Positions 2,803-47,714 of a DNA stretch of 64,000 bases are shown in pieces (position 1 is the stretch's first letter; each line of letters begins with the position of its first letter). The notes under the pieces are model-generated. The model was not told where the DNA came from. It saw only the letters and a program-made list of their open reading frames with translations, and ran no database searches. Source of the DNA: a virus; the IMG/VR virus record IMGVR_UViG_3300042402_003388, positions 1-64,000 of that record, one strand, 5' to 3'. Made by a program: the position numbers and the translations under genes.

Positions 2803-3201
2803 TTAGTGATACATTTGTAGGATTACCTCAAATTCACCGTTATATCGGTCAATAAAGACCATAAATTGTGGTTTTTCTAACGTATTTTGACCAATATACT
2901 CATTTACACCACCTAATCGATTAGAAGTTGATTTGTAAACCACTTTAGTATTGTAGTAGTCAGGATTATCTAACTTATCATAAACTTCTTTTGTGACCCA
3001 TACTACAGAATCAGGATTAACCCCACACTCACTGATACAATCATTCAACAAGATTTTCTCATCAGGTGTTAGTAATTCCATTACTTCAGGTCTCATACCA
3101 CCTGCATAACGTAAATTTTTTGAAGTTTGGTTGTAGAACACTTGAGCAAATCCAAATTGTACTACAAAAAGGAAGACGATTACTGAGATAATTTTTTTCA
3201 T
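2803..3201 (-). CDS. Secreted protein with Sec signal peptide, 132 aa
   Basis: Residues 1-20 form a clear Bacteroidota-type signal peptide (basic MKK, hydrophobic core, cleavage after FGFA before Q), so the product is exported to the periplasm or beyond. The mature part of about 112 residues is not recognised. It is encoded against the flanking late genes and shares a terminator with them. The start codon is the only one that includes the signal peptide. Confidence 0.75.
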   Translation of the reverse strand: MKKIISVIVFLFVVQFGFAQVFYNQTSKNLRYAGGMRPEVMELLTPDEKILLNDCISECGVNPDSVVWVTKEVYDKLDNPDYYNTKVVYKSTSNRLGGVNEYIGQNTLEKPQFMVFIDRYNGEFEVILQMYH

Positions 3202-11192: not shown

Positions 11193-12206
11193 ATGAAAAA
11201 AATTATAAAATTAACCGAATCTGACTTAAGAAGAATTGTTACTCGAGTTATTAAAGAACACGATGACAATTTAACTCACGCAGGAGAATATTTTGCTCTT
11301 GGTGGTTTTTATTTTTATGTCGATAACGGTAGAATGTGTTTAGCGGATAAATCGACGGGAGAGTTAAGTCCTAATATGTCGGTTGAGTTTCCATCAACAA
11401 ATGAAATTTCAGCCGAGTGGACTCAAAAGACACAAGAAGTTGATGATGAAAATATTAAAGGAAAAGAGTTGTCAGGACTTAATTTTGACGAGAGAATGAA
11501 AAATGCGATTAACTACGGTAAGTACATTTATGGTAAAAACGAAGCAATTGCGAATTTTGGAAGTATGTTACCAATCGTATTTTATTCTCAAAAATATATG
11601 GCCCCAACTTTGGGAGGTTTTGTTGTTGGAACTGAATTCCCTGACGGTGTTGAAGGTAGGTTAAATACCATTGATGCGAAACCTGGAAATAAAATATTTT
11701 TCCAACAATCGGCATTTAAACACGGTAAGGATTATGGTATCAGACTTGAGGTTTCAATGCACGGACAACCAATATCGTTAAAAGATTTTGGGCTTAACCA
11801 AAATATGTTAAAATTGCCAAAGACATATAATATTGGTGATTTTTTCGCGGAAAATAGTGATACTCCTCACAATTTACATACCGCATCATTTATTGATACT
11901 ATTAAAAAACATATTGCAGATGGTGGTAAAATTAATCGACTTATGATTAACGCATCGACATCTAAAGTACCTGCAGGGCATATTGATAATGACGGGACTA
12001 AACCAAAGTGGTCGGATACTATGGACTACGATGATTTAGTTGTCGGAAACAATGACGATGGAACAGGTAATCTACAGTTGTGTAAGGCTAAAGCTTATAA
12101 AACGTATAATGAGTTAAAAAATGCAATTCCTGAATTGAATAGTGCTCCTTATGTGTTGAAAGCTGCAGGCCCACTAGGTGAATACGTTCACATAAAATTC
12201 GAATAA
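11193..12206 (+). CDS. Tagged (LTESDL) probable internal virion protein, 337 aa
   Basis: It begins MKKIIKLTESDLRRIVTRVI and then KE, differing from the tag at 3286 at only five of 22 positions, while the bodies are unrelated. Predicted processing is after E22. The body of about 315 residues is a soluble mixed fold without a recognised domain (for example YFALGGFYFYVDNGRMCLADK). It could be an internal head protein or injected effector. Confidence 0.8.
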   Translation: MKKIIKLTESDLRRIVTRVIKEHDDNLTHAGEYFALGGFYFYVDNGRMCLADKSTGELSPNMSVEFPSTNEISAEWTQKTQEVDDENIKGKELSGLNFDERMKNAINYGKYIYGKNEAIANFGSMLPIVFYSQKYMAPTLGGFVVGTEFPDGVEGRLNTIDAKPGNKIFFQQSAFKHGKDYGIRLEVSMHGQPISLKDFGLNQNMLKLPKTYNIGDFFAENSDTPHNLHTASFIDTIKKHIADGGKINRLMINASTSKVPAGHIDNDGTKPKWSDTMDYDDLVVGNNDDGTGNLQLCKAKAYKTYNELKNAIPELNSAPYVLKAAGPLGEYVHIKFE

Positions 12207-12218
12207 TACAATTAGAAA

Positions 12219-12350
12219 ATGGCAAAGGCTAAAGGCAATTCATCTAATGGTATGAAAGTTTCCTTCGGTAAAAAGGGGAAAGGTAAGTACCAAAAAAAAC
12301 GTAACAAACACGACAAATCTGAGAAAAACTACAGAGGACAAGGAAGATGA
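12219..12350 (+). CDS. Small very basic protein, 43 aa
   Basis: A short ORF, MAKAKGNSSNGMKVSFGKKG then a Lys/Arg-rich tail (KGKYQKKRNKHDKSEKNYRGQGR). No hydrophobic core is seen, so it is likely a nucleic-acid-binding peptide. It follows the tagged gene by 12 nt and ends inside the 5' arm of a terminator. Confidence 0.65.
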   Translation: MAKAKGNSSNGMKVSFGKKGKGKYQKKRNKHDKSEKNYRGQGR

Positions 12351-12368
12351 AAATCTTCCTTTTTTTTT
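12342..12368 (+). terminator. Terminator overlapping a stop codon
   Basis: GGAAGAT-GAAA-ATCTTCC followed by T9; the preceding gene's TGA lies in the hairpin. Confidence 0.85.
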
Positions 12369-12376
12369 CTTTAAAA

Positions 12377-12408
12377 TTTGACTGTTGTTTAAAAAGTTGT
12401 TATCTTTG
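12377..12408 (+). promoter_or_regulatory. Host-type promoter of tRNA-like gene
   Basis: TTTG (12377-12380), N20, TATCTTTG (12401-12408). Confidence 0.7.
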
Positions 12409-12415
12409 TATTGTT

Positions 12416-12427
12416 GTTCTTTGAAAC
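12416..12427 (+). promoter_or_regulatory. boxA-like element
   Basis: GTTCTTTGAAAC, followed by ATATTGG, lies between the -7 box and the tRNA-like gene. The same element precedes five other stable-RNA units. Confidence 0.55.
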
Positions 12428-12432
12428 ATATT

Positions 12433-12505
12433 GGTAGTGGTAGCTCAGAAGGTAGAGCATCCGTTCGAACAACGGTGTGCCATTGGTTCGATTCCAGTCC
12501 CTACC
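12433..12505 (+). tRNA. tRNA-like gene, probably Phe(GAA), atypical
   Basis: The D arm (GCTC...GAGC) and T arm (ATTGG-TTCGATT-CCAGT) are canonical. The anticodon stem CCGT/ACGG leaves loop TCGAACA, reading GAA, but position 33 is C instead of the near-universal U. The acceptor pairing GGTAG/CTACC has one mismatch and an extra base before the D arm. It may be a defective or specialised tRNA; a normal tRNA-Phe occurs at 50793. Confidence 0.6.
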
Positions 12506-12516
12506 ACAAAAAAAGA

Positions 12517-12548
12517 TTTGACATTTTAAAATAATGTTAGTATCTTTG
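12517..12548 (+). promoter_or_regulatory. Host-type promoter of ncRNA
   Basis: TTTG (12517-12520), N20, TATCTTTG (12541-12548). Confidence 0.65.
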
Positions 12549-12858
12549 AAGTATTGAACAGAGGGATTTTCTTTCAAGGGTTTTCAGTCACTACACCCGC
12601 AGATTTTGTTACACCTCTCTAAACTAAAAAACAAAACGAACGCAAAGTGATAAGGTTTATAGGTCGGAAATACCTTAACTACAACCTAGTGTACACTAAA
12701 ATAAGTTTAAAGTCGCCAGGTTTTTTCCTAACTTTAACCCTTTAAAAAAAGTTGTGGATGTTCAACCCACACAGGTCCAAGGAGTCCTAAGTAAAAATTC
12801 TTAAAAATCCCTGACGGGGGGTGTACAAAGGGGGACGACGGTCTCCCTTTTTTTTTTG
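12549..12858 (+). ncRNA. Candidate structured non-coding RNA, about 300 nt
   Basis: A host-type promoter and a strong terminator bracket a stretch without a credible ORF. Visible helices are AGAGG/CCTCT near 12561-12620, TAAGGT/ACCTTA around 12651-12679, TGTGG/CCACA near 12752-12770, and the terminator. It does not show tmRNA, RNase P or 6S signatures that I recognise. Confidence 0.55.
12827..12858 (+). terminator. Strong terminator of ncRNA
   Basis: A 10-bp stem AAAGGGGGAC/GTCTCCCTTT with a GACG loop and a T-run. Confidence 0.85.
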
Positions 12859-12869
12859 TTTTTTTCAGG

Positions 12870-12876
12870 TATTTAT
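12870..12876 (+). promoter_or_regulatory. Late-type TATTTAT box
   Basis: GTATTTATAGG, 20 nt upstream of ATG 12897. CTACCAAGATAT in the leader is part of a short repeated motif. Confidence 0.5.
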
Positions 12877-12896
12877 AGGTATAAAACTACCAAGAT

Positions 12897-13169
12897 ATGA
12901 AAAAAATTATTGACTGGGTCTCAGGACTTTTTAAAGACGAAAACGGAACACCTTCATCTAAAAGATTTGTAGGTATTGTATGTGCATTAACACTATGTAT
13001 TACTATGTATGTGAACAGTTATTCTCACGGGGATATTAAACCTGCGGATTCTTTAGTTAACGCAGTTGCATTATTGGCGTTTGGTTGTTTAGGTTTATCT
13101 TCTGCGGATAAATTTATTGCAATGAAAAAAGATGTTGCAAACGCAACTAAAGAAGAGGAAACTAATTAA
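12897..13169 (+). CDS. Holin-like membrane protein, 90 aa
   Basis: A short amphipathic N-terminus (MKKIIDWVSGLFKDENG, then TPSSKRFVG) is followed by two transmembrane helices (about 25-43 and 52-70) and a charged tail. The layout resembles the small holin-like proteins common in Bacteroidota phages, which would permeabilise the inner membrane at lysis. Assignment rests on topology only. Confidence 0.65.
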   Translation: MKKIIDWVSGLFKDENGTPSSKRFVGIVCALTLCITMYVNSYSHGDIKPADSLVNAVALLAFGCLGLSSADKFIAMKKDVANATKEEETN

Positions 13170-13189
13170 TATATTTCTTCTAAAAAAAT

Positions 13190-13221
13190 TAAAACCCCCT
13201 TTGATTCATTGGGGGTTTTTT
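13190..13221 (+). terminator. Terminator
   Basis: CCCCC/GGGGG stem with a T6 tail. Confidence 0.8.
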
Positions 13222-13235
13222 GTTATAATTGGGTT

Positions 13236-13649
13236 ATGGAACTTTTAAACACTCACCCAATTAAAAAATCCGATTTAGGTTTTCACGGAAACTTATTTGG
13301 AGGAAAACTTTTAGCTTGGATTGACGCCGCAGCTGCGGGTTATTCAATGCAATTATGTGACTCACCAAGAATGGTCACAGTATCTATCGATAAATGTTTT
13401 TTTGAGAAGCCAGCTAAAGAAGGGCAACTTTTAAAAATTTATGGATACCCAAGTAAATTAGGTAATACGTCAGTTAGTTTATATATGGAGGCGAGAGCTC
13501 ATAATGTGTACACAGGTAATCAGGCGGTTGTTTTAAAAACACACATCAGATTCGTTAGAATTGACGAGGAAGGTAACCCAATTCCAATCAACGAAAAAGG
13601 TAGAAGTAGAATCGCTAAATTAATTGAAGAAAATAAATTTGGCGAATAA
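13236..13649 (+). CDS. Acyl-CoA thioesterase, hotdog fold (YciA-like), 137 aa
   Basis: HGNLFGGKLLAWIDAAAAGY near residues 17-36 is the hotdog-helix signature of acyl-CoA thioesterases, with matching downstream strands (MVTVSIDKCFFEKPAKEGQL, SVSLYMEARA). Length fits single-domain YciA/BFIT-type enzymes, which hydrolyse acyl-CoA to free acid and CoA. ATG 13236 is preferred to an upstream in-frame ATG inside the terminator. It is a metabolic gene unusual for a phage and may adjust host lipid pools. Confidence 0.85.
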   Translation: MELLNTHPIKKSDLGFHGNLFGGKLLAWIDAAAAGYSMQLCDSPRMVTVSIDKCFFEKPAKEGQLLKIYGYPSKLGNTSVSLYMEARAHNVYTGNQAVVLKTHIRFVRIDEEGNPIPINEKGRSRIAKLIEENKFGE

Positions 13650-13970: not shown

Positions 13971-15101
13971 ATGTCGAGAATTGATGAATTAAAAAAACAA
14001 AACCCTTCATTTGGGGTTAACCTTATTGAGGTGATAAACAATTTAGTGGATAAGCCAAAATACACTGAAATGTTAGTAAATCTTATAAAATATAAGTACG
14101 ATAAACAGTCCACATCCTTAAAAGATGTAACTCACGAATTAGTAAACGAATATAAGATTCCTGAATCTAAATTGGAAGGGATGTCGTATTTTGAATTACA
14201 AAATTATCTTAGAGTGATTGGGGATTATATTGGTCATCAGAATTATTCTACCGTAACTAAGTTTATCGAGATGAATGAACGAAAGTTAATTGAAAATTCA
14301 GATTTAACTTCATATAAAACGTTTCAAGAGTTAGAATTACAAATGTCTTTGGCCGATTTGAAATTGGTTGACAAAGAAATGGAAAAACAAATTGAAAAGT
14401 TGTTTGAAGATGATGAATGGTTAGTATTGAAACCTTTATCTTATCTATCGTCTAAAAAATATGGGGCATCAACTAAATGGTGTACCGCATCTGATAGAGA
14501 ACCTGATTATTATTATCGATACGTAAAAAGAGGTATCTTAATCTACGTAATTAATAAAAAAACAGGTGATAAAGTTGCGGGGTTCAAAAACATTGATTCG
14601 TCATACGAAAGAGAAACCTCTTTTTGGGATATTGTAGACCAAAGAGTGGATTCGTTAGACACAGGATTACCTAATCACATTATGGATATCTTTAAGGAAC
14701 AATTCCATAACGTTAAAATAACAAATTGGAACAGTTTAACTGATGACGAACGAAATAGACAACTATTGTGGTTGGAGAATGAATATTATGGTCAAAAAAA
14801 ATCCTCAGATAGATTAATGCCAAGAGCGGTAGGGATGGATGTTGAAAGACCTATGAGAGTTTTAGAAAATATTCTAGTTGATGTAACAAATGAGGAGATA
14901 GATAGGTCAATTGGTGAAATGGTTATGGAAGAACCTATGGGGGAAATGATGATGGAAGAATCTATGGGTTATGAGGTAGAAGAGACCATCACCAGACAAC
15001 TTAATAATCTACTTGAGGATTTGGCCGAAAGAGATTATCAAGAAAACGGTGGGAGAGTTGTCCAAATGTATCCTGATGAATCACCTCGAGAATCAAGATA
15101 A
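13971..15101 (+). CDS. WCTA-domain protein, 376 aa
   Basis: Residues about 150-215 carry YGASTKWCTASDREPDYYYR followed by a hydrophobic strand (GILIYVIN), the same module as in the 598-aa LRR protein at 4242. Upstream is a helical region. The C-terminus has imperfect repeats of MVMEEPMGE/MMMEESMG, a Met/Glu-rich low-complexity tail. The module is shared by two proteins here and may be an enzyme or binding domain with an essential Trp-Cys, but I cannot name it. Confidence 0.7.
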   Translation: MSRIDELKKQNPSFGVNLIEVINNLVDKPKYTEMLVNLIKYKYDKQSTSLKDVTHELVNEYKIPESKLEGMSYFELQNYLRVIGDYIGHQNYSTVTKFIEMNERKLIENSDLTSYKTFQELELQMSLADLKLVDKEMEKQIEKLFEDDEWLVLKPLSYLSSKKYGASTKWCTASDREPDYYYRYVKRGILIYVINKKTGDKVAGFKNIDSSYERETSFWDIVDQRVDSLDTGLPNHIMDIFKEQFHNVKITNWNSLTDDERNRQLLWLENEYYGQKKSSDRLMPRAVGMDVERPMRVLENILVDVTNEEIDRSIGEMVMEEPMGEMMMEESMGYEVEETITRQLNNLLEDLAERDYQENGGRVVQMYPDESPRESR

Positions 15102-17213: not shown

Positions 17214-19115
17214 ATGAAAAAACTCTTAGCGGTTGCCTCATTTCTATTAATGAGTGCAATCGGATTCTCTCAAACGTGTCCTACCCCGACCACAACAGGG
17301 GTCTTCGTTACGTTAGATTCAAACTACCAATTGGCACCGTCGGCGGCTGGTTTTACTAACGTAGGATTGTGTTTCTACAATAACACTACAACCCTAATCA
17401 CCGCGGCTCAATTCAGAGTATACTACGACAAACTTGCATTTTCAGGTGTTGACACAGTTACCTCATTAAACACATCGTATTCTCAGTATTTACAATATGT
17501 GGATAACCCCGCAAACGGATATGTAACAATTACATTATCTTATACGGGTAGTTTATCAACTTTTGAGATTCCTGACGGAGCGTTTGTACAATTAAAATTA
17601 CAACATATTACAGGATTCTCATCATTAACATCTGTTGGTAATATGTCGTTTAGTGGTGTAAACACATACCCTTCTATCTCTACAAGACAAGACGGTACTG
17701 ATAATACATTAACCTTACAAAACTTTGGTGGGGTTATGTTACCTCAGACATTTTCTTTTACAGGTACATTTACAAACGTTACAGGTACAGGGGCCAAAGA
17801 CTTAACAGTTGGTCTTGAGAAAAAACTTAGACCTAGTGGGTCTTGGACACCAGTAACAAGTACATTAACTAATACCTCAGGTGTCTTCGCATTTAACGAT
17901 ATTGCGGTCGATACTACAGGTTACGATGTTCGTATTAAAATTGTTGGAGATACTATGTCGGTAGGTAACGTTATCTCTACGGCAGATGCACAAAAAGTTA
18001 ATGACTATGTATTAGGTACTCAAACCCCAACAGGATTTGATTATTACGCGGCTGATGTTAACGGTGATAATAATATAACAATATCGGATGCTTATGGTGT
18101 ATTTGGTAGAATCTCAGGAAGATTCTCAGTTTGGCCAAACAGTGTTAAAGACGTTAAATTCTTTACATCCGCAGAATACACAACAATTAATGGTTCATCT
18201 ACGAATTACTTGTCATCAATTCCTGGTACTACAAACTTCACATTTAATATTATTGCGGGGGCACCTTCACCTACATTCTACGTGTTAGTTCCTGGTGACG
18301 CTAACGGTACAGGTTATCATATGGCTCGTGTTACACCAATTGAAGTGTTAATAAACCCACAACCTGGTGTTGAATCTCAAATTTATAATGTGATTGACAA
18401 TAGAGTTGAGTATGATTTCCCAACGACTTCGATTGAAGTTAATGTACCAAGATTATCAGTACAAGAAGGTAATTTAGTTAATATACCTGTAAAAGTTTTT
18501 ACAAGTGGTACTGACTTAGGTTCATTACAGTTTGGGTTAAAATATAATGATACATTATTGGAATTCAAAGGTATTGATTCTAAATCATCGGCTTCAAGTT
18601 GGTTAACATACTTAAATACTAACGATAACATTATTACTTGGGGTGGTTATGATAATAGTAATCATTTAAAACCTATACGTAACAACGATGAGGTGGTTAC
18701 TTTAAAATTTATAGCTAAACAACCACAAAATTTATGGGATGAAAGTCCTCTTTGGACTACAGATAAATTTGCTGGGGATAACCAATGTAAAGATTTGGAA
18801 ATAACCCCAACAAATGGAATTGTTCAAGTTTATAAAATGGTAAATGGACATATGACAGATGTTAATGGTATGATTGTTTACCCAAATCCGACTGAAGATT
18901 ACGTTACGGTTAAATTCGAAGTTAAAGAATATGGTAATGTTAGACTTTCGGTATACGGTGTTGATGGTAAGGAATATAAAGTAATGGTTAACGATAAAAT
19001 GCCTCAGGGCGATTATCAATACAGTACTAACTTAGGTTATCTACCTTCAGGTGTTTATATGGCGGTTCTTAAAAGAAGTGACATACAACTTACAAGTAAA
19101 ATTATTTTAAAATAA
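17214..19115 (+). CDS. T9SS-secreted cohesin/dockerin surface protein, 633 aa
   Basis: A signal peptide (1-19, cleavage GFS/Q) is followed by a cohesin-like beta-sandwich (about 28-165). Next come a second beta domain (180-245) and a dockerin-like Ca-binding pair (250-303, DVNGDNNITISDAYGVFGRI), then a further module with FFTSAEYTTI. A second cohesin-type domain spans about 408-540, and the C-terminal PNPTEDYVTVKFE...GVYMAVLK region (553-633) is typical of the type A sorting domain of type IX secretion. The product is predicted to cross the outer membrane via the host T9SS and be surface-attached or released. It heads a seven-gene envelope operon. Confidence 0.85.
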   Translation: MKKLLAVASFLLMSAIGFSQTCPTPTTTGVFVTLDSNYQLAPSAAGFTNVGLCFYNNTTTLITAAQFRVYYDKLAFSGVDTVTSLNTSYSQYLQYVDNPANGYVTITLSYTGSLSTFEIPDGAFVQLKLQHITGFSSLTSVGNMSFSGVNTYPSISTRQDGTDNTLTLQNFGGVMLPQTFSFTGTFTNVTGTGAKDLTVGLEKKLRPSGSWTPVTSTLTNTSGVFAFNDIAVDTTGYDVRIKIVGDTMSVGNVISTADAQKVNDYVLGTQTPTGFDYYAADVNGDNNITISDAYGVFGRISGRFSVWPNSVKDVKFFTSAEYTTINGSSTNYLSSIPGTTNFTFNIIAGAPSPTFYVLVPGDANGTGYHMARVTPIEVLINPQPGVESQIYNVIDNRVEYDFPTTSIEVNVPRLSVQEGNLVNIPVKVFTSGTDLGSLQFGLKYNDTLLEFKGIDSKSSASSWLTYLNTNDNIITWGGYDNSNHLKPIRNNDEVVTLKFIAKQPQNLWDESPLWTTDKFAGDNQCKDLEITPTNGIVQVYKMVNGHMTDVNGMIVYPNPTEDYVTVKFEVKEYGNVRLSVYGVDGKEYKVMVNDKMPQGDYQYSTNLGYLPSGVYMAVLKRSDIQLTSKIILK

Positions 19116-19120: not shown

Positions 19121-19141
19121 GAGGTCACAAATTGTGACCTC
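19121..19141 (+). repeat. Near-perfect 10-bp inverted repeat without T-run
   Basis: GAGGTCACAA-A-TTGTGACCTC lies directly after the T9SS protein gene, but CTTAGCC follows instead of a T-run. It may be an attenuator or an RNA-stability hairpin. The arms recur in the terminator at 41264. Confidence 0.6.
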
Positions 19142-19183: not shown

Positions 19184-19522
19184 ATGTCAGAGGAAACAAA
19201 CGTACCTGAATCAGATGGAACTTGGTCAGGGTTAAAGAAAACAATCATCGGAACACTAACTACAGTAATTGCTGGAGGTGGGGTATGGGTATCAACAATG
19301 TTATTTGGAGGTCATTCAGAAGAAAAAGAAGAACCTAAAACTGAACAAACTGCGGCACCCGCACCAGTTATAGTTAACGTACAACAAAATCAAGAAAATA
19401 AACAAAAAGTTGAAAACGGTGGTGGTACTAACACAATCATTAAAGAACGTGTTATTGAAAAACCTGCGGCTCAGACAACTGAACCTGCTAAACCTGTTAA
19501 AAAAGAAGAGGAATCTTGGTAA
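19184..19522 (+). CDS. Single-pass membrane protein with Pro/Ala/Lys/Glu tail, 112 aa
   Basis: An N-terminal hydrophilic 15 residues, one transmembrane segment (about 18-42, IIGTLTTVIAGGGVWVSTML), then a long charged, Pro/Ala-rich extension, perhaps spanning the periplasm like a TonB-type linker. The stop codon overlaps the start of the CsgG-like gene (TAATG), so they are coupled. No family assigned. Confidence 0.7.
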   Translation: MSEETNVPESDGTWSGLKKTIIGTLTTVIAGGGVWVSTMLFGGHSEEKEEPKTEQTAAPAPVIVNVQQNQENKQKVENGGGTNTIIKERVIEKPAAQTTEPAKPVKKEEESW

Positions 19523-20238
19523 TGAAAAAGTTATTGTACACCCTACTACCCATAATATTACTTTCTTGTAAAGTTAGTGGTCAAATAGGAACGGTTAAAA
19601 CCGAACAGTATCAAGCGGATTTTGAAAAAAAACAATCCATATCTGTTGTGTCGGATTATACAGATACAATTGTAATTCCTATTCAGGTTCTTAAAATCGG
19701 AATCAATGAGGAATTATACTCTATGTACCCTGAACTTAAAGATAAAAGAGTCGGTTTAGGGGTGGCAAATATCGTTTTAGAATACTTGGAATCTACTGAT
19801 AGATTTAAATTTACTGAAGATAAAGAGGAAATTAAACAGAAAATGATTGCACAAGACAAAGCTTCTGATAAAGGAATTTCAAGTAACAAAATAGAGGTTA
19901 AGGGTAATGTAATCTTAGCCAAATATTTTGTTTATATCGAAGTGTATGACTTTTCAGTTTCTGAAGATGAGGTCGTTAAAGCGACTGATGGTGCTAAAAC
20001 AACTCAAACAACTCGTTTAGGGTTACAAGTTAGATTTGTGGATGCTGAGACAGGTGAAATCTACACAGGTAGTGGTTTAGGTGAAGCGTCAACGGTTAAA
20101 ACATCATCATTGTTGTCAGATGTTGAAGACATTAAATTTAATCAATCAACAATAGGTATTTCGACAAAAAAGGCTCTTGAAACGGCATCGTCAAGAGTTG
20201 TGTCAAAATTAATAAAAAAGGGTGTCTTTAAATCTTAA
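19522..20238 (+). CDS. CsgG-like outer-membrane secretion lipoprotein, 238 aa
   Basis: The lipoprotein signal has lipobox LLSC (Cys16). The mature part fits the CsgG family: VGLGVANIVLEYLESTDRFKF early, then FVDAETGEIYTGSGLGEA, and a C-terminal STIGISTKKALETASSRVVS. CsgG forms a nonameric outer-membrane channel that exports curli subunits, and length agrees (about 240-270 in the family). Neighbours are a membrane protein, an outer-membrane barrel and secreted proteins, consistent with an envelope secretion or surface-display module. Confidence 0.8.
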   Translation: MKKLLYTLLPIILLSCKVSGQIGTVKTEQYQADFEKKQSISVVSDYTDTIVIPIQVLKIGINEELYSMYPELKDKRVGLGVANIVLEYLESTDRFKFTEDKEEIKQKMIAQDKASDKGISSNKIEVKGNVILAKYFVYIEVYDFSVSEDEVVKATDGAKTTQTTRLGLQVRFVDAETGEIYTGSGLGEASTVKTSSLLSDVEDIKFNQSTIGISTKKALETASSRVVSKLIKKGVFKS

Positions 20239-20243: not shown

Positions 20244-20591
20244 ATGAGTTTAAAAAATTTATTAATGGGTGAAACCAAACTTGTAAAAGTAGAAGATAAA
20301 AATCGTTTCTATTATATGTTACAACAAATGCAATCAAACCGTTGGAGAATTACCGCAGTAGTGTTGGGATTATTTTTCTTCATAATCTTAGGAATCAACG
20401 CGGGTATATTCTTTGGAATGACTGTAGGTGAGGATTGGAAAGAAATGTTATTAATTTTATTAGGTGCCTTTGTTGGTAACTTAAATAAAGTTGTTGACTA
20501 TTGGTTTAACTCTGAAGATAGAGATAAAATGTTAATTCAAAAAGTGGACGAAGAAGACGGAGTTTCTTTATCTAACACAACTGAAATCTAA
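20244..20591 (+). CDS. Two-helix inner-membrane protein, 115 aa
   Basis: Two transmembrane helices (about 36-59 and 67-88) are flanked by charged ends. The second helix and its continuation LILLGAFVGNLNKVVDYWFN resemble phage holin-like membrane proteins. It lies 5 nt after the CsgG-like gene in the same operon. The role is inferred from topology only. Confidence 0.65.
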   Translation: MSLKNLLMGETKLVKVEDKNRFYYMLQQMQSNRWRITAVVLGLFFFIILGINAGIFFGMTVGEDWKEMLLILLGAFVGNLNKVVDYWFNSEDRDKMLIQKVDEEDGVSLSNTTEI

Positions 20592-20592: not shown

Positions 20593-22188
20593 ATGAACAT
20601 TAAGAAAATTTTATTAACACTAAGTTTTCTGTTCACAACATTAATGGTATTTGGACAGGGGTTTTCGTATACATATACGGACCCCTGTACTAATAAAATT
20701 AAAGAACTTTTCATTAATAACCCTAATGGAAATATTGCCTTAATGTATTATGGTCAGGTGCAAAGTTTTACCCCAACTCAATTACAATCAGGTGCCTTGG
20801 AGCAATGGATTACTCAAATTAATTCATCAAATCCTTCAGGACCTTGTAGTGGTGTTGCGTTATACCAAAATACGACAATGAATGCAATTATAGCTGCAAA
20901 TAATATTGCGGTACTAACTAATGTCCTATCGGCATTAAGTGACATATCATCAATGGGAGGAGCCAATATTGGGGGTATTGTTGAAGCTAAGGAAAAATCT
21001 AATTCCGAAGACGGTAAAACAAAACCTAAAGAAGGTCAATCAACCAACGGAGGGACAACTCAAAATAACTCTCAAAATACAGGTTCTCAGGGGTCTAATC
21101 CCCAAACAACCAACGGAACAACCAACGGAAATCCAATCCAAAATGGTGGTTCTAACGGTCAAACAACCTCAAATTCGGGGTCATCGACCATTAACAATCA
21201 AACACAAAATAATGGTACCACAAATAACAATGGAGGAGGTTCAGTTACTTCTGGAGGAAATCAAACGAACTCGCAATCACAAACAAGTAATGGAACTAAC
21301 CAAAACTCTGGAGGAGGTAATTCAGGTCAAGGAACAACAACATCAACAACAGGAGGAAACACTACAAATACAGGTAACTCACCTCAAGGAGGAGGTCAAA
21401 CGACTCAATCATCTGTAACAACGTCTAATGGTGGGGGTTCCCAAGGTTCAGGAGGAAATACTACTAACAATGGAAATGAAAAACCAAATGAGGATAAGTT
21501 AAATGATATGACTAAAACCTCATCATCTAATTCATCTCAAGTTAAATCTAAAGTTGCCAATGCAAAACAAGGTGGAATTTTATTAACGGGTGATATTGTT
21601 GCGATTAGCAGTGCGTCGGGTGAAGAGGCTCAACAGTTTAGGGTTAATATGAGTTTAACAAAATCAAATACGGATAACACATTTGTTAGAGGTGCTTTAC
21701 TTAATTTTACCAGTTCTATTAACAATTCAAATATTACCTTTTTTGCGGGATACCGAAGAAAAAACTTAACATCGATTATAGCCAATTCATCGATGTTAAA
21801 CTTTGAAAAAGATTTTTTCAATACAACCTCAATAATGGAATCTTATAAATATAAAAATATTACAGGTACTTTAGGGGTTAATTACACCACAGGTAATTTA
21901 GGTTCCGCGAGATTCCAAAGTTTATCCGCATTAGGGGGATTAATTGGTACTTTTAAAGTTACAAAAAAAATAAATAACACAACTATGTTAGTATTTGTAT
22001 ATTCACCATATGTATATTATTATGAAGGGTTGTGGTACGAATCAGGATGGTTGGCGGTACCATTCACTGCGTTTGATTATCGAATAAGTAGTAAATTTAA
22101 ATTAAATTTAAGTTTCAGTGGGGTTCAACAAGTCAAAGACGCCACATTAAATTACCAAGTATTACTTGGGGCTAAAGCTTTATTATAA
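20593..22188 (+). CDS. Outer-membrane barrel protein with Gln/Asn/Gly/Ser/Thr-rich region, 531 aa
   Basis: A signal peptide (1-21, VFG/Q) precedes a globular N-domain to about 120. A roughly 190-residue low-complexity segment (about 135-320) dominated by Gly, Asn, Gln, Ser and Thr follows. The C-terminal ~190 residues show alternating hydrophobic strands with aromatic ends (ITFFAGYRRKNL, GTLGVNYTTG, LVFVYSPYVYYYEG), typical of an outer-membrane beta-barrel. The composition of the middle resembles curli-like or prion-like polar sequences, notable beside a CsgG homologue. Confidence 0.75.
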   Translation: MNIKKILLTLSFLFTTLMVFGQGFSYTYTDPCTNKIKELFINNPNGNIALMYYGQVQSFTPTQLQSGALEQWITQINSSNPSGPCSGVALYQNTTMNAIIAANNIAVLTNVLSALSDISSMGGANIGGIVEAKEKSNSEDGKTKPKEGQSTNGGTTQNNSQNTGSQGSNPQTTNGTTNGNPIQNGGSNGQTTSNSGSSTINNQTQNNGTTNNNGGGSVTSGGNQTNSQSQTSNGTNQNSGGGNSGQGTTTSTTGGNTTNTGNSPQGGGQTTQSSVTTSNGGGSQGSGGNTTNNGNEKPNEDKLNDMTKTSSSNSSQVKSKVANAKQGGILLTGDIVAISSASGEEAQQFRVNMSLTKSNTDNTFVRGALLNFTSSINNSNITFFAGYRRKNLTSIIANSSMLNFEKDFFNTTSIMESYKYKNITGTLGVNYTTGNLGSARFQSLSALGGLIGTFKVTKKINNTTMLVFVYSPYVYYYEGLWYESGWLAVPFTAFDYRISSKFKLNLSFSGVQQVKDATLNYQVLLGAKALL

Positions 22189-22189
22189 A

Positions 22190-22642
22190 ATGAAAACATT
22201 ATTATTAATTACATTGGCAACTTTAATGTCAATAACATCTTACTCTCAGTCGTGTTTTACTGTTAAAAGTGTTCAAACTAAAGACAGTATTCAAGGGATT
22301 AGCCCTAAACGATTCACATTGGGGGTAAAACAAATAACTGAAGAGGTATTATCTGAAAAATATTCTATATGTGAAGACGGGAAACCTGTTTCAGTTGTGA
22401 TTGAAAGTATTGAGGCTCCTACTACAGGTATCTCAATAGGTCCGTTCGAGAAAAAAAGAAAGGTTACTATAGTAACATTAAAAGTGACTATCGACAATAA
22501 AGATTACATTGGTGTTGGGGAGAGTAAAATTGATGTCAAATCAACTTTTATTGAATTACAAGATGAAAATATACCATTTGAAAAATCTTCATTTTCGGCA
22601 GGTTTGAAAAAGGCTTTAATTAATGCGGTTAATAAAATCTAA
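22190..22642 (+). CDS. Secreted small protein of envelope operon, 150 aa
   Basis: A signal peptide (1-19, SYS/Q), then a mature domain of about 130 residues with alternating strands (PVSVVIESIEAP, KVTIVTLKVTIDNKDYIGVGES) and a final helix. The layout is reminiscent of small periplasmic partners of CsgG systems, but similarity to CsgE/CsgF is not clear by eye. The start at 22190 is 1 nt after the upstream stop, and the 3' end overlaps the lectin gene by 20 nt. Confidence 0.7.
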   Translation: MKTLLLITLATLMSITSYSQSCFTVKSVQTKDSIQGISPKRFTLGVKQITEEVLSEKYSICEDGKPVSVVIESIEAPTTGISIGPFEKKRKVTIVTLKVTIDNKDYIGVGESKIDVKSTFIELQDENIPFEKSSFSAGLKKALINAVNKI

Positions 22643-24320
22643 GGTTAGAAACATAATATTTGTTTTGGTTTTGTTCTTCACAAATGTTGTTGTGGGGCAA
22701 AATTTTACTTATTCGGGGTATATCTACAATTCAAATGGGGTTGGGGCTTCAAATGTCCCTGTGAGATTATATAAAAGAACGACTCCATCATTAAACGGAT
22801 TTACATCCCAAACCAACTATAATGGACACTCATATTATCGTTCAACAGGTTCAATGTTTTGGTTAGACGCAAAAACCGCTTGTGAAAATATGAACGGTCA
22901 TTTAGCGACAATCTCAGATGTTTCCGAGAGAAATTTTCTTTTTAACACTTGGCCTTCAGGGTGGATAGGATATTATCAAGATAAAACAGGTCCCTTTTTT
23001 TCAGAACCTTTAGGTGGGTGGAGATGGACCGAAAATTATGTAACCGCAACTCAAACTAATAATTACGATGTTAGTAGTTATAGTTCAGGTAGTGTTTTAA
23101 CTGATTTAAAAAATTCAAAAAATATTACATTATATAATTCGCCAGTCCTTACTACAGGTGGTGGAAAATACCTAACATTTAATGGTGTTAATACCTATGG
23201 GATTACACCAAGTTTAACAAGTCATTTCACAAATTCAAACGTAATCACATTAGTACTATGGGTGTACCCAACAGGAAATGGTGTTATATTAAGTGAATTA
23301 GGAATCCCATCACCATCTTCAGGATGGCACGAATCTGTGGTCGAGATTACTGGTGGTAATACATTAAGATGTGGTTTTTGGAATGGTACGGGAATTACTC
23401 AAATATCTACAAGTATTACGTTAAATCAGTGGTGTATGATAGCATTAACCTATAATGGGTCGACAATGACAGGATATAGAAATGGAGTGTCTTTTGGTAG
23501 TACAACATTTAGTAGATTTAGTCCTCATTTAAATGGTGGTGGAGACCAAATTTTTGCGTTAGGATTAACTGATGCGACTAATATGGGTCACGGTGGATAT
23601 GGTTCTTTCAGATTAGGTGCGTTCCAAGTGTATAATACTTCTTTAACTTCAGATGAAATAAATAGAAATTATATGTCATTATCTTACAGGTTTGGTATAA
23701 ATCCATATCTATCGTGGAATGGTGGAGAACCGAATAATTCAGGAACTGAGGATTACGCTCAATTTGTTGGAGGTGGTCTATGGAACGACTTACCTAATAA
23801 TGTTTCGTTACCTTATGTACTTGAATTTGATTATATCGTTACCTTTACTCCTTGGGTATTATTTAAAACCGTGTATACGGATTTTACAGGTAAATACACA
23901 ATTAATGAATCCACCAACCCATCAGTTGAGTGGTATATTCAATTAGACGCTCCTACCACAATTACAGGTCTACAAAATATTGATGCAATAGCGGCGTCCA
24001 CAAAGGCAATAAGTAGGTCCTTCACTTCTTTAGATTATTATAAGTACGATGTTAATAATGATGGTAATATTACGGTATCTGACGAGTATTATATTTTTAT
24101 GAAAAAGAATGGAAGGTTTTCAAGTTGGGGTCCCTCTTTACCGAGCGTTAGATTATTTACTTCATCCCAATTTTCAATAATTAATTCGTCGACTAATGAC
24201 TTAAGAAGTACTTATCCTGGTGTTCAAAGTATAACTATATCAACACCAACCAATGGAGGTAGTTCAAATTATTATTTAATTAATACGGGGTATTCTAATA
24301 GTACTATTTTAGGGTATTAA
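22623..24320 (+). CDS. Secreted lectin with nested domains and dockerin-like module, 565 aa
   Basis: A signal peptide (about 8-25) precedes a beta-sandwich start (FTYSGYIYNSNGVGASNVPV) that is interrupted at about residue 65 and resumes near 405 (YTDFTGKYTINE). Within it is a C-type lectin domain split into an N-half (WLDAKTACENMNGHLATISD) and a C-half (WNGGEPNNSGTEDYAQFVGG, WNDLP). Between those halves lies a LamG/concanavalin-like domain (about 160-350). A dockerin-like Ca-binding segment (472-499, DVNNDGNITVSDEYYIF) and a short tail follow, matching the module order of the 633-aa protein. No T9SS sorting domain is present. Confidence 0.8.
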   Translation: MRLIKSKVRNIIFVLVLFFTNVVVGQNFTYSGYIYNSNGVGASNVPVRLYKRTTPSLNGFTSQTNYNGHSYYRSTGSMFWLDAKTACENMNGHLATISDVSERNFLFNTWPSGWIGYYQDKTGPFFSEPLGGWRWTENYVTATQTNNYDVSSYSSGSVLTDLKNSKNITLYNSPVLTTGGGKYLTFNGVNTYGITPSLTSHFTNSNVITLVLWVYPTGNGVILSELGIPSPSSGWHESVVEITGGNTLRCGFWNGTGITQISTSITLNQWCMIALTYNGSTMTGYRNGVSFGSTTFSRFSPHLNGGGDQIFALGLTDATNMGHGGYGSFRLGAFQVYNTSLTSDEINRNYMSLSYRFGINPYLSWNGGEPNNSGTEDYAQFVGGGLWNDLPNNVSLPYVLEFDYIVTFTPWVLFKTVYTDFTGKYTINESTNPSVEWYIQLDAPTTITGLQNIDAIAASTKAISRSFTSLDYYKYDVNNDGNITVSDEYYIFMKKNGRFSSWGPSLPSVRLFTSSQFSIINSSTNDLRSTYPGVQSITISTPTNGGSSNYYLINTGYSNSTILGY

Positions 24321-24390: not shown

Positions 24391-25212
24391 ATGTTATTAA
24401 AAAAAGGTTCTAAAGGTGAAGACGTAAAAAAATTACAATCAAAATTAGGTCTTGTCGCTGATGGAGATTTCGGTCCTGGTACTGAAACAAAAGTTAAAGA
24501 ATGGCAAGCGGCAAACGGTTTAACTGCAGATGGTATCGTAGGTGACGGTACTTGGGGTAAAATGTTTGCGGGAGAAGTCATTAAAGAAGACGTGGTAATC
24601 CCAACGGGAGGACCATTAAAATTAGAAAAATTAAAAGGTCATATTCCTGACGCGGTAATCGCTCAAATTCCTGAGACTGCTGCTAAATTCAATATTACAA
24701 CACCATTAAGATTAGCCCATTTCTTGGCACAATGTGGTCACGAATCAGGAGGTTTTAAGGCGGTTAGTGAGAATGTAAACTATTCTGCAGATGGTCTTAA
24801 AAAAATATTTGGGAAGTACTTCCCTGGTAATTTGGCAGAGTCTTACGCAAGACAACCTGAAAAAATTGCATCTCGTGTTTACGGGGGTAGAATGGGTAAC
24901 GGTGACGAAGCGTCAAAAGAAGGGTTTAAATTCCGTGGAAGAGGCTACATCCAATTAACTGGAAAATCAAACTATACAAACTTTGCCAAGTTTATTGGTG
25001 AGGATACTGTGGCAAATCCTGATTTGGTTGCAACTAAATACCCATTAGCATCTGCGGCGTTTTTCTTTGACTCAAATAAACTTTGGTCTATTTGTGATAA
25101 AGGTGCTGACGAAGCGACAGTAACTGCGGTGACTAAAAGAGTGAATGGTGGGACTATTGGATTAGTCGATAGATTAAAACATTTTAAAGAATATTATTCA
25201 CTTTTAGCATAA
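24391..25212 (+). CDS. Endolysin: peptidoglycan-binding plus GH19 domain, 273 aa
   Basis: Residues 1-65 are a PG_binding_1 domain (GSKGEDVKKLQSKLG, DGDFGPGTETKVKEWQ). Residues about 85-273 are a glycoside hydrolase 19 lysozyme/chitinase-type catalytic domain with GHESGGFKAVSENVNYSADG (catalytic Glu pair) and FRGRGYIQLTGKSNY. It cleaves peptidoglycan glycan strands at lysis. No signal peptide, so a holin is needed; the small membrane proteins at 12897 and 49980 are candidates. Confidence 0.9.
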   Translation: MLLKKGSKGEDVKKLQSKLGLVADGDFGPGTETKVKEWQAANGLTADGIVGDGTWGKMFAGEVIKEDVVIPTGGPLKLEKLKGHIPDAVIAQIPETAAKFNITTPLRLAHFLAQCGHESGGFKAVSENVNYSADGLKKIFGKYFPGNLAESYARQPEKIASRVYGGRMGNGDEASKEGFKFRGRGYIQLTGKSNYTNFAKFIGEDTVANPDLVATKYPLASAAFFFDSNKLWSICDKGADEATVTAVTKRVNGGTIGLVDRLKHFKEYYSLLA

Positions 25213-28344: not shown

Positions 28345-28376
28345 TTTGTAAAATAAAAAATAAAATTGTATTTTTG
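28345..28376 (+). promoter_or_regulatory. Host-type promoter, leaderless
   Basis: TTTG (28345-28348), N20, TATTTTTG (28369-28376), 4-nt gap to ATG 28381. Confidence 0.65.
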
Positions 28377-28380
28377 TACT

Positions 28381-28839
28381 ATGAAAAAAATAATATTATT
28401 CCTTTTAGTTTTAATTAGTGTTCCGTCTTACGGACAATACTCAGGATTAACGGTAATCCCTGAGGATAGAAGTGTAATTTGTTCATTCGAGAATATCAAT
28501 GACGATAACTTTGGATTTTATATTGGGGCCTTTTATAAAATTGGTGCAACATCTAATCCGTATATCTATCGAACCCCTTACGCATATTTTAATAGAATAG
28601 GTATTAACTACGGATTTTTAAAGTGTGGGTTAGTTGTTGGTGCTGGTGTTAAGACTGATTTAACTATAGGTCCTGACCCTGTTTTTTATCCTGATGTTAT
28701 GGTTAAACTACAACCAATAAAACTTTTAACCCGTAATAAAGACATATGGGATATATCTGTTACTGTTGGAGTTACTGACATACCGTATATTGGTTTTGGA
28801 ATTTCTATACCTTATCGGTACGGAACCTACTATCGATAG
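28381..28839 (+). CDS. Secreted, probable small outer-membrane barrel protein, 152 aa
   Basis: A signal peptide (1-18, SYG/Q) is followed by repeated short amphipathic strands (FGFYIGAFYKIG, AYFNRIGINYGFL, CGLVVGAGVKTD, IPYIGFGISIPYRYG), typical of an eight-stranded outer-membrane barrel. A host-type leaderless promoter suggests early expression. A possible role is altering the cell surface, for example superinfection exclusion. Confidence 0.7.
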   Translation: MKKIILFLLVLISVPSYGQYSGLTVIPEDRSVICSFENINDDNFGFYIGAFYKIGATSNPYIYRTPYAYFNRIGINYGFLKCGLVVGAGVKTDLTIGPDPVFYPDVMVKLQPIKLLTRNKDIWDISVTVGVTDIPYIGFGISIPYRYGTYYR

Positions 28840-45564: not shown

Positions 45565-45636
45565 GGTCCCTTCGTCTATCGGTTAGGACATATCCCTTTC
45601 ACGGATAAAAGACGGGTTCGATTCCCGTAGGGACTA
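45565..45636 (+). tRNA. tRNA-Glu(TTC)
   Basis: Loop CTTTCAC; T arm ACGGG-TTCGATT-CCCGT; first gene of array 1. Confidence 0.9.
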
Positions 45637-45657
45637 CAAAACTTAAAAAATATTATT

Positions 45658-45921
45658 ATGCCAGAATTTAACACTTATGTTGATGTAGACGTTTACGAAT
45701 TTATTGATGAATGTTCAAAAAGTGAAATTAATGAGTTAATTGACGATTTAATTGATAGGGGTTACTTAAACAAAAATAGTAAAGGGGTTGGTAAACCACC
45801 GAAATATTCATTAATTGAGGAAACTCATAGAGATTATTGTGATGTTTTGGCGAATTCTTACCATAGAATGAGTAAGGAAGACGAAGAAACAATCGCGAAT
45901 ATTGCTAAAAAATATTCGTAA
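45658..45921 (+). CDS. Small acidic hypothetical protein, 87 aa
   Basis: A protein-coding gene inside the tRNA array. The N-terminal half is helical and acidic (VYEFIDECSKSEINELIDDL); GKPPKYSLIEE resembles winged-helix or anti-activator surfaces, but no family is assigned. It lies between tRNA-Glu and tRNA-Ala, so it is probably on the same transcript. Confidence 0.7.
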   Translation: MPEFNTYVDVDVYEFIDECSKSEINELIDDLIDRGYLNKNSKGVGKPPKYSLIEETHRDYCDVLANSYHRMSKEDEETIANIAKKYS

Positions 45922-45928
45922 TAAAAAT

Positions 45929-46002
45929 GGGGGTGTATGTCTCAAGGCCGACGAGAATGATTTGCAATCAATCTGGGGTGAGTTCGATTCTCACCATCTC
46001 CA
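45929..46002 (+). tRNA. tRNA-Ala(TGC), divergent
   Basis: Acceptor GGGGGTG/CATCTCC, loop TTTGCAA, T arm intact. The D arm (TGTC...GACG) and anticodon stem (one A-A mismatch) deviate from consensus. Confidence 0.75.
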
Positions 46003-46005
46003 CAA

Positions 46006-46097
46006 TGTTATCATAGCTCAGTAGGATGAGGCCGCAATCGGATTCCTTTAAACAACGCGTGAGGGGCGGCTTTCACGATGTGGCTGAAGTGATAACA
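46006..46097 (+). ncRNA. tRNA-like element without T loop
   Basis: A perfect 8-bp closing helix TGTTATCA/TGATAACA and a tRNA-type D arm (TAGCTCAG...GAG) surround GCCGC/GCGGC and CTTCA/TGAAG helices. No GTTCGA T loop and no clear anticodon are present. It may be a decayed tRNA or a tRNA-mimicking RNA processed by RNase P. Confidence 0.55.
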
Positions 46098-46107
46098 AAT
46101 AATATAT

Positions 46108-46179
46108 CGCGGGATAGAGCAGTGGTAGCTCGCAAGGCTCATAACCTTGAGGTCGGGGGTTCGAATCCCTCTCCCGCAA
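46108..46179 (+). tRNA. Initiator tRNA-fMet(CAT)
   Basis: Position 1 C is opposite A72 (CGCGGGA/TCCCGCA), the hallmark of initiator tRNA. The D arm GAGCAGTGGTAGCTC is fMet-like. The loop CTCATAA reads CAT, but the anticodon stem is CAAGG/CCTTG rather than three G-C pairs. Confidence 0.8.
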
Positions 46180-46188
46180 CTAATATAT

Positions 46189-46262
46189 CGTGGGTTAGAC
46201 TGGAGGTGGTTCCAGCTTGGTCTCATAAGCCAAAGACGGGGGTTCGAGTCCCTCACCCGCAA
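46189..46262 (+). tRNA. Second tRNA-Met(CAT) with C1-A72 mismatch
   Basis: Acceptor CGTGGGT/ACCCGCA also has C1 opposite A72; loop CTCATAA. The D arm is unusual (GACTGG...CCAGC). It is preceded by the same TAATATATCG string as the initiator tRNA, suggesting duplication. Confidence 0.7.
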
Positions 46263-46340
46263 CAAAGTGTCTCGGTCCGCTCTGACGAAAGTTAACGACG
46301 AGGTCTCGGTAGACAGAACGCGTCTGATTCTACCCAAAAT
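46263..46340 (+). other. Spacer with a strong hairpin
   Basis: GGTAGA-CAGA-ACGCG-TCTG-AT-TCTACC forms a long hairpin near 46309-46335; TCTCGGT occurs twice. No gene is recognised. Confidence 0.4.
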
Positions 46341-46413
46341 GCGAGAGTAGCTCAGTTGGTAGAGCACAACCTTGCCAAGGTTGGGGTCGCGGGTTCGAAT
46401 CCCGTCTCTCGCT
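46341..46413 (+). tRNA. tRNA-Gly(GCC)
   Basis: Acceptor GCGAGAG/CTCTCGC, loop TTGCCAA. Confidence 0.92.
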
Positions 46414-46422
46414 CAATAATAA

Positions 46423-46495
46423 GCGGATATCGTATAATGGCTTATTACTTCAGCCTTCCAAGCTGAAGATGTGAGTTCGATTCTCACTATCCGCT
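46423..46495 (+). tRNA. tRNA-Gly(TCC)
   Basis: Acceptor GCGGATA/TATCCGC, loop CTTCCAA. Confidence 0.92.
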
Positions 46496-46500
46496 CAAAA

Positions 46501-46573
46501 GGTCCCGTGGTTGAATGGTTACAATTCCACCCTGTCACGGTGCGAGGTACGGGTTCGAATCCCGTCGGGACCG
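46501..46573 (+). tRNA. tRNA-Asp(GTC)
   Basis: Acceptor GGTCCCG/CGGGACC, loop CTGTCAC. Confidence 0.92.
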
Positions 46574-46581
46574 CAAACTTT

Positions 46582-46653
46582 GGTCTATTCGTTCATCGGC
46601 TAGGATGCTACCCTGTCACGGTAGTGAGGAGGGTTCGATTCCCTCATAGACCG
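46582..46653 (+). tRNA. tRNA-Asp(GTC), second copy
   Basis: Acceptor GGTCTAT/ATAGACC, loop CTGTCAC; diverged from the neighbouring Asp gene outside the anticodon loop. Confidence 0.92.
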
Positions 46654-46683
46654 CAAAAATAAATTAATTTATACTTATTGAGT

Positions 46684-46842
46684 ATGGATAAAGAAAAATG
46701 GGATTCTGATGAATGGCAAGGGCGTTCTAAAGACAGGGTCGAAAAAAACAATAAAGTTTTTGGATACTCTATATTACTTACAATACTTGGTACAGTAATT
46801 TGTTATTTATACGTCATAATATCCACTTATTTTAGATTTTGA
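46684..46842 (+). CDS. Small single-pass membrane protein, 52 aa
   Basis: A hydrophilic N-terminus (MDKEKWDSDEWQGRSKDRVE) is followed by one transmembrane helix (about 28-47) and a short tail. Found within the tRNA region; not recognised. Confidence 0.6.
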   Translation: MDKEKWDSDEWQGRSKDRVEKNNKVFGYSILLTILGTVICYLYVIISTYFRF

Positions 46843-46874
46843 TTTGTTATTTCGTAAAAAATTTACTAAATTTG
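46843..46874 (+). promoter_or_regulatory. Host-type promoter
   Basis: TTTG (46843-46846), N20, TAAATTTG (46867-46874). Confidence 0.6.
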
Positions 46875-46892
46875 TAGTGTAAATAAAATATT

Positions 46893-47069
46893 ATGTGGGT
46901 AATTGTAAAATTAATGGAAAGTCTTAATGGTGTTAAAGTTCCTGTCATTATCTTAGATGGACACTCAGAAATTTGGGAATTTGAAACTGAAGAAGAGGCG
47001 GTTAAAATGAGAGACATTTTTTCTAAAAACTCGGACTCAGGTCACGTTTACTTAGTTAAAAAAGTCTAA
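46893..47069 (+). CDS. Small hypothetical protein, 58 aa
   Basis: A compact beta-alpha-beta layout: WVIVKLMESLNGVKVPVIIL, then an acidic helix (FETEEEAVKMRDIF) and a final strand (GHVYLVKKV). Probably real: it has a host-type promoter and lies just upstream of tRNA-Arg. Function unknown. Confidence 0.65.
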   Translation: MWVIVKLMESLNGVKVPVIILDGHSEIWEFETEEEAVKMRDIFSKNSDSGHVYLVKKV

Positions 47070-47074
47070 CAAAT

Positions 47075-47148
47075 GGTTCCGTAGCTCAGCTGGATAGAGC
47101 AACTGCCTTCTAAGCAGTAGGTCACAGGTTCGAATCCTGTCGGGACTA
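47075..47148 (+). tRNA. tRNA-Arg(TCT)
   Basis: Loop CTTCTAA; acceptor GGTTCCG/CGGGACT. Confidence 0.9.
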
Positions 47149-47163
47149 CTAAATTAAAAAATT

Positions 47164-47418
47164 ATGGTTGATATTAATCAAGATATTGTATTTGAGGAAG
47201 AACATAATGAGTTTATTAAAAGTGAGTTATTCTGTCAAATGATGAAAGAAAAAATAGAACATTCTGCGTATCATAAATTTGATGGTATTGCACCTGAAGG
47301 ATTTACGTTGGTACCAAATGAGGTGTTAGAAGAACTTAAGGACTTTGACAATTGGAAGGAGTTTAAATACGATTTAGAATGGATTAAGAAAAATTCTATA
47401 AAGTATTTGGTAGTTTAA
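47164..47418 (+). CDS. Hypothetical protein, 84 aa
   Basis: Small, acidic, helical, with a conserved-looking turn FDGIAPEGFTLVPNEVLEEL. Sits between tRNA-Arg and a lipoprotein gene. Not recognised. Confidence 0.7.
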   Translation: MVDINQDIVFEEEHNEFIKSELFCQMMKEKIEHSAYHKFDGIAPEGFTLVPNEVLEELKDFDNWKEFKYDLEWIKKNSIKYLVV

Positions 47419-47435
47419 CTTATAAAAAATAATAT

Positions 47436-47714
47436 ATGAAAAAATTTGCACCATACGTATTAGTACTTATTTGGTTTTTAGTTATTGGGTTATTGGCGTT
47501 CTTATTGACAGGATGTAAAAATAAGAATAAAATAGAACCTGGTGATAAAGTAGTTAAATGTGTAATTGATAGTGTTTCAACTGAAGGACCTCGTTCAACT
47601 ATTGAACCGTATGTAAGATATTATTACTATACCAAATGTGGTGAAAGACTTATTACCAATCGAGATGACATTTACAAAATTGGGGACACGATAACTTACG
47701 TATATAAAAAATAA
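47436..47714 (+). CDS. Lipoprotein, 92 aa
   Basis: The N-terminal hydrophobic segment ends in LLTGC, a lipobox (Cys27), so the product is membrane-anchored. The mature part is a small beta domain (PGDKVVKCVIDSV, RYYYYTKCGERLI) with two more Cys. It may modify the host envelope; function unknown. Confidence 0.7.
   Translation: MKKFAPYVLVLIWFLVIGLLAFLLTGCKNKNKIEPGDKVVKCVIDSVSTEGPRSTIEPYVRYYYYTKCGERLITNRDDIYKIGDTITYVYKK

Follow-up and report, generated by a model that had tools for sequence, protein, structure and literature searches.

A phage scaffold protein with cohesin and type IX sorting domains, its putative partner lectin and a tentative surface apparatus of large Bacteroidota phages

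Can a phage place a protein of its own on the surface of the cell that it infects by means of the host secretion machinery, and can that protein hold a lectin there? The question is raised by a gene at positions 17214-19115 (+ strand) of a 64,000-nucleotide stretch of viral DNA, here called the window, which is part of a 100,550-base viral record. The gene has an ATG start and an intact reading frame, and its product of 633 amino acids is referred to here as the scaffold. An earlier note on this DNA had described it as a protein with two cohesin-like domains, a dockerin-like segment and export signals, and had suggested that it could assemble with the adjacent lectin. The description of its parts is right provided that the first cohesin and the dockerin are called "like", because the Cohesin matches of the former are weak and the Dockerin_1 match of the latter is below the cut-off. 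The wider conserved block of genes, which includes a protein with a CsgG fold, goes beyond that account. We put forward tentatively, and with the balance of probability somewhat against it as a whole, a dedicated surface apparatus of large Bacteroidota phages, in which a cohesin scaffold exported by the type IX secretion system (T9SS) would dock an interchangeable lectin, with a CsgG-fold assembly of its own, and the infected cell would display an adhesin chosen by the phage. We know of no earlier viral cohesin-dockerin display system, and this apparatus would be the first.

The signals for export are found at the two ends of the scaffold. Residues 1-19 (17214..17270, + strand) are a Sec signal peptide of the Bacteroidota type, MKKLLAVASFLLMSAIGFS, with cleavage predicted ahead of Gln20, and this residue is unchanged across 62 relatives in the family alignment, which bears out the signal peptide proposed earlier. 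The invariant Gln20 fits the Q-rule for signal peptides of Bacteroidetes (PMC5837995). Residues 555-633 (18876..19112, + strand) form a type A T9SS C-terminal sorting domain, also as proposed; Por_Secre_tail (Pfam PF18962) matches residues 555-631, at the very C-terminus, with 44.3 bits versus a cut-off of 27, and the NCBIfam type A model TIGR04183 matches with 30.6 versus a cut-off of 23. When domains were counted over 62 non-redundant relatives, this tail was present in all 62, and its key residues are retained in every one. Export of the scaffold through the T9SS is strongly implied by these features, and the predicted use of the host Sec and T9SS pathways is well supported by the invariant Q-rule signal peptide together with the universal tail.

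A direct scan with the scaffold protein gave 21 viral relatives, and scanning with a profile raised this to 242 stretches of viral contigs that encode the family, which is spread among Bacteroidota phages on contigs of up to 434 kb. Among 50,697 phage records, it was found only in the Flavobacterium phage immuto species. When 84,980 prokaryotic genomes were scanned, the family was present on two contigs (loci L027 and L028), and the flanks of L027 are clearly those of a phage, with topoisomerase, PRPP synthetase and endolysin genes. Contamination by host DNA was rejected on the basis of these two contigs only and of the phage-like flanks of L027, and the scaffold is, as judged from this distribution, a phage protein family. 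The phage-like L027 contig, from a Bacteroidetes MAG, also encodes a second T9SS-tailed protein, of 288 residues (G015:C291:133097-133330).

The dN/dS values of the scaffold against its relatives lie between 0.04 and 0.11, which points to strong purifying selection. This bears on the view that the proteins are adhesins of the virion, with a signal peptide and a T9SS tail left over as remnants of a host origin. Phage particles commonly bear lectin and Ig domains, and the heads of the lectin discussed below vary as those of receptor-binding proteins do, both of which would suit such a view. Leftovers would decay, whereas Gln20 is invariant, the key tail residues are kept in 62/62 relatives and selection on the protein is strong; in addition, the nearest tail-like neighbour is merely a hub-like transglycosylase. 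A role on the virion is for these reasons very improbable.

Between its two ends, the scaffold consists of beta-sandwich domains and a dockerin-like module. Residues 24-180 (17283..17753, + strand) form an N-terminal cohesin-like beta-sandwich, recognized by strands in the model and by sub-threshold matches to Pfam Cohesin, with an E-value of 0.021 in the window copy and as low as 1.8e-4 in relatives, of which five out of seven tested gave such matches. Profile comparison with hhalign does not connect this domain with the second cohesin. It is probably a first cohesin, and not a proven one, because all its matches are sub-threshold and a profile relation to the second cohesin is lacking. It is followed by an Ig/transthyretin-like domain (residues 181-244; 17754..17945, + strand), with strands in the model and CarboxypepD_reg/Transthyretin matches in relatives. 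The second cohesin (residues 407-538; 18432..18827, + strand) is firm, given that Cohesin (PF00963) matches it with 42 bits versus a curated cut-off of 24.1, and the domain is found in 53 of the 62 relatives. Although the AlphaFold model of the scaffold is of low confidence (pLDDT 58), Foldseek matches it to PDB cohesins, among them 2vn5, with a TM-score of 0.64 by target length and a probability of 1.00. Of the two cohesin-like domains claimed earlier, one thus stands above threshold and the other is matched below it.

The dockerin-like module occupies residues 245-310 (17946..18143, + strand). Dockerin_1 (PF00404) covers residues 253-294 of the window copy with 19.1 bits, below the cut-off of 22.9, and gives a match at E<=0.01 in 22/62 relatives, while a PDB search matches the segment to the dockerin of cellulosomal ScaB (4uyp, E 6e-4). 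The calcium loop DVNGDNNITISD is intact at residues 281-292, and the first F-hand is degenerate. Type I dockerins have two calcium-binding F-hand loops, and here the calcium ligands are kept in the second F-hand only. The calcium-binding segment noted earlier has one intact loop, and we refer to this module and to its counterpart in the lectin as dockerin-like only, on account of the Pfam scores of the window copies and of the single intact loop. A conserved segment lies past the module (residues 311-403; 18144..18422, + strand), the first part of which is common to the lectin.

The secreted lectin is encoded at 22623..24320 (+ strand). It has a nested architecture, with a C-type lectin domain inside an Ig-like domain and a LamG domain interrupting the C-type lectin. 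Lectin_C is above its cut-off in the window protein and is found in 47/62 lectin relatives, and the EPN and WND motifs of the sugar site are readable in the window sequence. In relatives, LamG is missing or other heads stand in the same place; LamG occurs in 20 of the 62 lectins, and the other heads are GEVED, Ig_7 and PA14. The loci L075 and L082 have CsgG-like proteins that are 98% identical and scaffolds that are 93% identical, and their lectin heads are different. Lectin heads swap on a constant module. A diversity-generating retroelement acting on the lectin was considered and rejected, given that the 100.5 kb record holds no reverse transcriptase.

That constant module is the dockerin-like module of the lectin (24012..24305, + strand). 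The earlier note had placed a dockerin here, and its homology to the module of the scaffold is clear, with hhalign aligning the C-terminal module of the lectin to the middle of the scaffold at E 5e-35 over 167 columns, although the window copy has no Pfam dockerin hit. Dockerin_1 does match 13/62 lectin relatives. Of the two calcium loops, the second is retained in 59/62 lectins and 60/62 scaffolds, and the first is without its ligands. An Ig domain adjoins the module in both proteins. None of the 62 lectins carries a T9SS tail.

The occurrence of cohesins and modules was examined over 16 whole records, comprising viral contigs of 112-434 kb, the immuto genome and a single MAG. No cohesin protein other than the scaffold of the block was found in them, the scaffold scoring above threshold in 15 of the 16, and each record has exactly two copies of the dockerin-like module, one in the scaffold and the other in the lectin. 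The scaffold alone has a T9SS tail in 15 records, and the MAG has 13 tails. Immuto and three relatives encode the scaffold as two separate halves, one with the module and without T9SS tail and the other with the cohesin and the tail, and each half carries a signal peptide. The split gene lies at 11598-13422 in locus L003, and is also seen in L103, L105 and L107, with a gap of one base between the halves; in L103, the signal peptide of the second half does not end ahead of a glutamine. The presence of one cohesin protein and one free-standing module per genome, together with the fission in immuto, favours docking through the module, and this pattern, like the swapping of heads on an unchanging base, is consistent with a pairing of lectin and scaffold by cohesin-dockerin contact.

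Several observations weigh on the other side. The module may not bind the cohesin, because its first F-hand is without calcium ligands and the window copy scores below the Pfam cut-off, and the module of the scaffold could itself occupy the cohesin of the scaffold. No specific signal came from a mirror-tree comparison of the cohesin with the lectin module, which tracks the T9SS tail more closely, with partial correlations from the distance matrices of 0.14 for the cohesin and 0.28 for the tail, which served as control. These data would suit a scaffold that is exported by the T9SS and in which the module is only a calcium-stabilized spacer, shared with the lectin through duplication, with no binding between the two proteins via the module and the lectin arriving at the surface or in the medium by a different path, for example through the CsgG-like channel. 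Duplication predicts the homology over 167 columns, and a spacer would agree with calcium ligands in only one of two F-hands, with an adjoining Ig domain in both proteins and with the unspecific mirror-tree. What a spacer does not account for is that a cohesin is found nowhere else in the 16 records while each of them has exactly one plausible partner beyond the scaffold itself, and that the dockerin half without T9SS tail persists in the fission group. We regard the spacer as rather unlikely, while leaving it a substantial share of probability.

The scaffold gene is the first of a block, in which scaffold, X, CsgG-like protein and barrel follow one another and are succeeded by lectin and Y, whichever of these two comes first. 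This arrangement is found in about 150 loci, some of the loci in these neighbourhood counts being overlapping stretches from one contig. In the window, X (19184..19522, + strand) is small and has a proline-rich tail and a single hydrophobic stretch that is likely transmembrane. It is followed by the CsgG-fold outer-membrane protein (19522..20238, + strand), by TM (20244..20591, + strand), a small protein whose two hydrophobic stretches are likely transmembrane and which is missing from about half of the block loci, by a secreted protein with a low-complexity linker (20593..22188, + strand), probably an outer-membrane beta-barrel as judged from its signal peptide and family alignment, and by Y (22166..22642, + strand), which is secreted, short and related to the CsgG-like protein. 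The signal peptides of scaffold, barrel, Y and lectin all end ahead of a glutamine, and the glutamine after the signal peptide is invariant in the CsgG-like family. Directly past the stop codon of the scaffold, at 19121-19141 of the window, lies a perfect palindrome, GAGGTCACAAATTGTGACCTC; an A-run precedes it on the + strand, and it is terminator-like on the minus strand. In L027, an additional secreted barrel-like protein, not seen in the window, is encoded between lectin and Y (14177-14998). Two more small Q-rule secreted proteins lie outside the block, at 2803-3201 (-) and 28366-28839 (+) of the window.

No other protein of the block is as conserved as the CsgG-like protein (240 residues), with relatives about 70-98% identical to the window copy. 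This copy has a lipobox that is missing from some relatives. Its model is of modest quality (pLDDT 62), with long strands at 135-195; the best PDB matches in Foldseek are CsgG 4uv2/4uv3 (E 1e-7, probability 1.00), and the best viral structure match, in BFVD, is a phage CsgG. From this model, a CsgG fold with long membrane hairpins is predicted. At the level of sequence, the protein has no match to Pfam CsgG (PF03783), and hhalign against CsgG of E. coli aligned only 25 columns. Y was considered as CsgE or CsgF and rejected, since it matches neither and is instead related to the CsgG-like family (hhalign E 1.6e-10). No credible match to the barrel or to Y came from searches of PHROGs, PDB and Pfam.

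An endolysin with a peptidoglycan-binding domain and GH19 (24391..25212, + strand) is frequently found near the block. This raises the matter of lysis or egress, with endolysin, small membrane proteins and a CsgG-like pore opening the envelope late in infection and the surface proteins loosening or tethering the outer membrane. Endolysin genes are close to the block in many loci, the block has two small membrane proteins, and lysis has been proposed for the CsgG of phage Melnitz (PMC9004378). Nonetheless, the position and strand of the endolysin relative to the block vary between loci, TM is absent from about half of them, and lysis has no need of a protein exported by the T9SS and partnered by lectins whose specificity changes, all of which make a lysis module improbable.

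The preferred reading, a phage-made surface scaffold that is exported via Sec and T9SS and displays the lectin with the aid of an accessory outer-membrane assembly, has in our judgement an even chance of being correct. The scaffold would be exported by host Sec, matured by signal peptidase I according to the Q-rule and carried over the outer membrane by the host T9SS, staying on the cell surface. The lectin, with its module and without a T9SS tail, would be held on it, most likely with its module bound by the scaffold cohesin. The CsgG-fold proteins and the barrel would be an accessory outer-membrane assembly that aids export or anchoring of the complex; that the CsgG-fold proteins are a channel or ring exporting or anchoring the lectin is conjecture. 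The path of the lectin over the outer membrane is left unexplained by this mechanism, which counts against it. The outcome would be a phage-specified, head-swappable carbohydrate-binding layer covering the infected cell, and infected cells may thus carry a virus-made binding coat. Such a layer would alter the adhesion targets of the cell or which other phages can adsorb, and a change of adhesion and superinfection exclusion come first among the ideas on its purpose because mutations in T9SS and gliding genes give phage resistance in Flavobacteria (PMC13288928).

The same resistance would suit a scaffold acting as a decoy that saturates the T9SS, leaving the host unable to display its adhesins or the receptors of phages, for example SprB, since blocking of the T9SS would then give superinfection exclusion. 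For a decoy, the tail alone would suffice, and in the scaffold conservation is higher in the dockerin-like module and the cohesin than in the tail, making this extremely improbable.

Proteins with a T9SS sorting domain have been reported in Cryophage, where they were suggested to exploit the host system (PMC7468147), and phage T9SS sorting domains have been reported near BACON proteins in crAss-like contigs (PMC6949934). The novelty of the export claim is reduced because phage T9SS cargo was already reported for Cryophage (PMC7468147). Cryophage and the BACON contigs are like the scaffold in their phage-encoded sorting domain, and differ in their cargo, which is strain-variable (endoglucanase, GH39, a PA14 protein, BACON proteins), whereas the scaffold is a conserved cohesin/dockerin-like protein in a fixed multi-gene block. 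Phages of Porphyromonas gingivalis encode proteins with Bacteroidetes Q-rule signal peptides, as the block does, and these were proposed to modify the host envelope, the T9SS being unmentioned there (PMC10367356). Pelagimyophages and Melnitz carry CsgG/CsgF genes, for which sibling capture or lysis was proposed (PMC7029224, PMC9004378). Like the block, they have a conserved gene cluster in which the phage encodes an outer-membrane protein of CsgG fold; unlike them, the block has no detected sequence relation to Pfam CsgG and no CsgF or CsgE match, and it has a second CsgG-related protein and T9SS/lectin partners. The clostridial cellulosome is similar in having a cohesin on a surface-bound protein and a dockerin-like module on a partner, as reflected in the PDB and Foldseek matches. 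It differs in that the scaffold has one firm cohesin, a half-degenerate dockerin, a module on the scaffold too and no enzymes, is encoded in a phage genome, and would rely on the T9SS in place of S-layer or sortase anchoring. In the literature searched, no report of a phage cohesin-dockerin pair or of this block was found; phage T9SS cargo is already known, while the scaffold architecture and the conserved multi-gene block appear to be new.

The cultured Flavobacterium phage vB_FspM_immuto has the same block, with proteins annotated as 'cohesin domain-containing' and 'lectin C-type'. Unlike the window, its scaffold is in two genes and the lectin lies upstream, and the T9SS tail and CsgG fold are unannotated there. 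A paper on LMO8 phages makes no reference to it. Its host is Flavobacterium sp. LMO8, of a genus known to have the T9SS, and this cultured pair makes the idea testable. If the idea is true, widespread Bacteroidota phages re-dress their hosts during infection through the host T9SS with a modular lectin that is swappable between close relatives, and phage infection of Bacteroidota would be tied to how cells attach to particles and bind glycans and to superinfection exclusion. A natural cassette for display through the T9SS would have practical use as well.

The window further holds 29 tRNA genes in its 64 kb, of which 26 are clustered at 45565-52376; the cluster covers most amino acids and includes two adjoining tRNA-Asp genes with the same anticodon.
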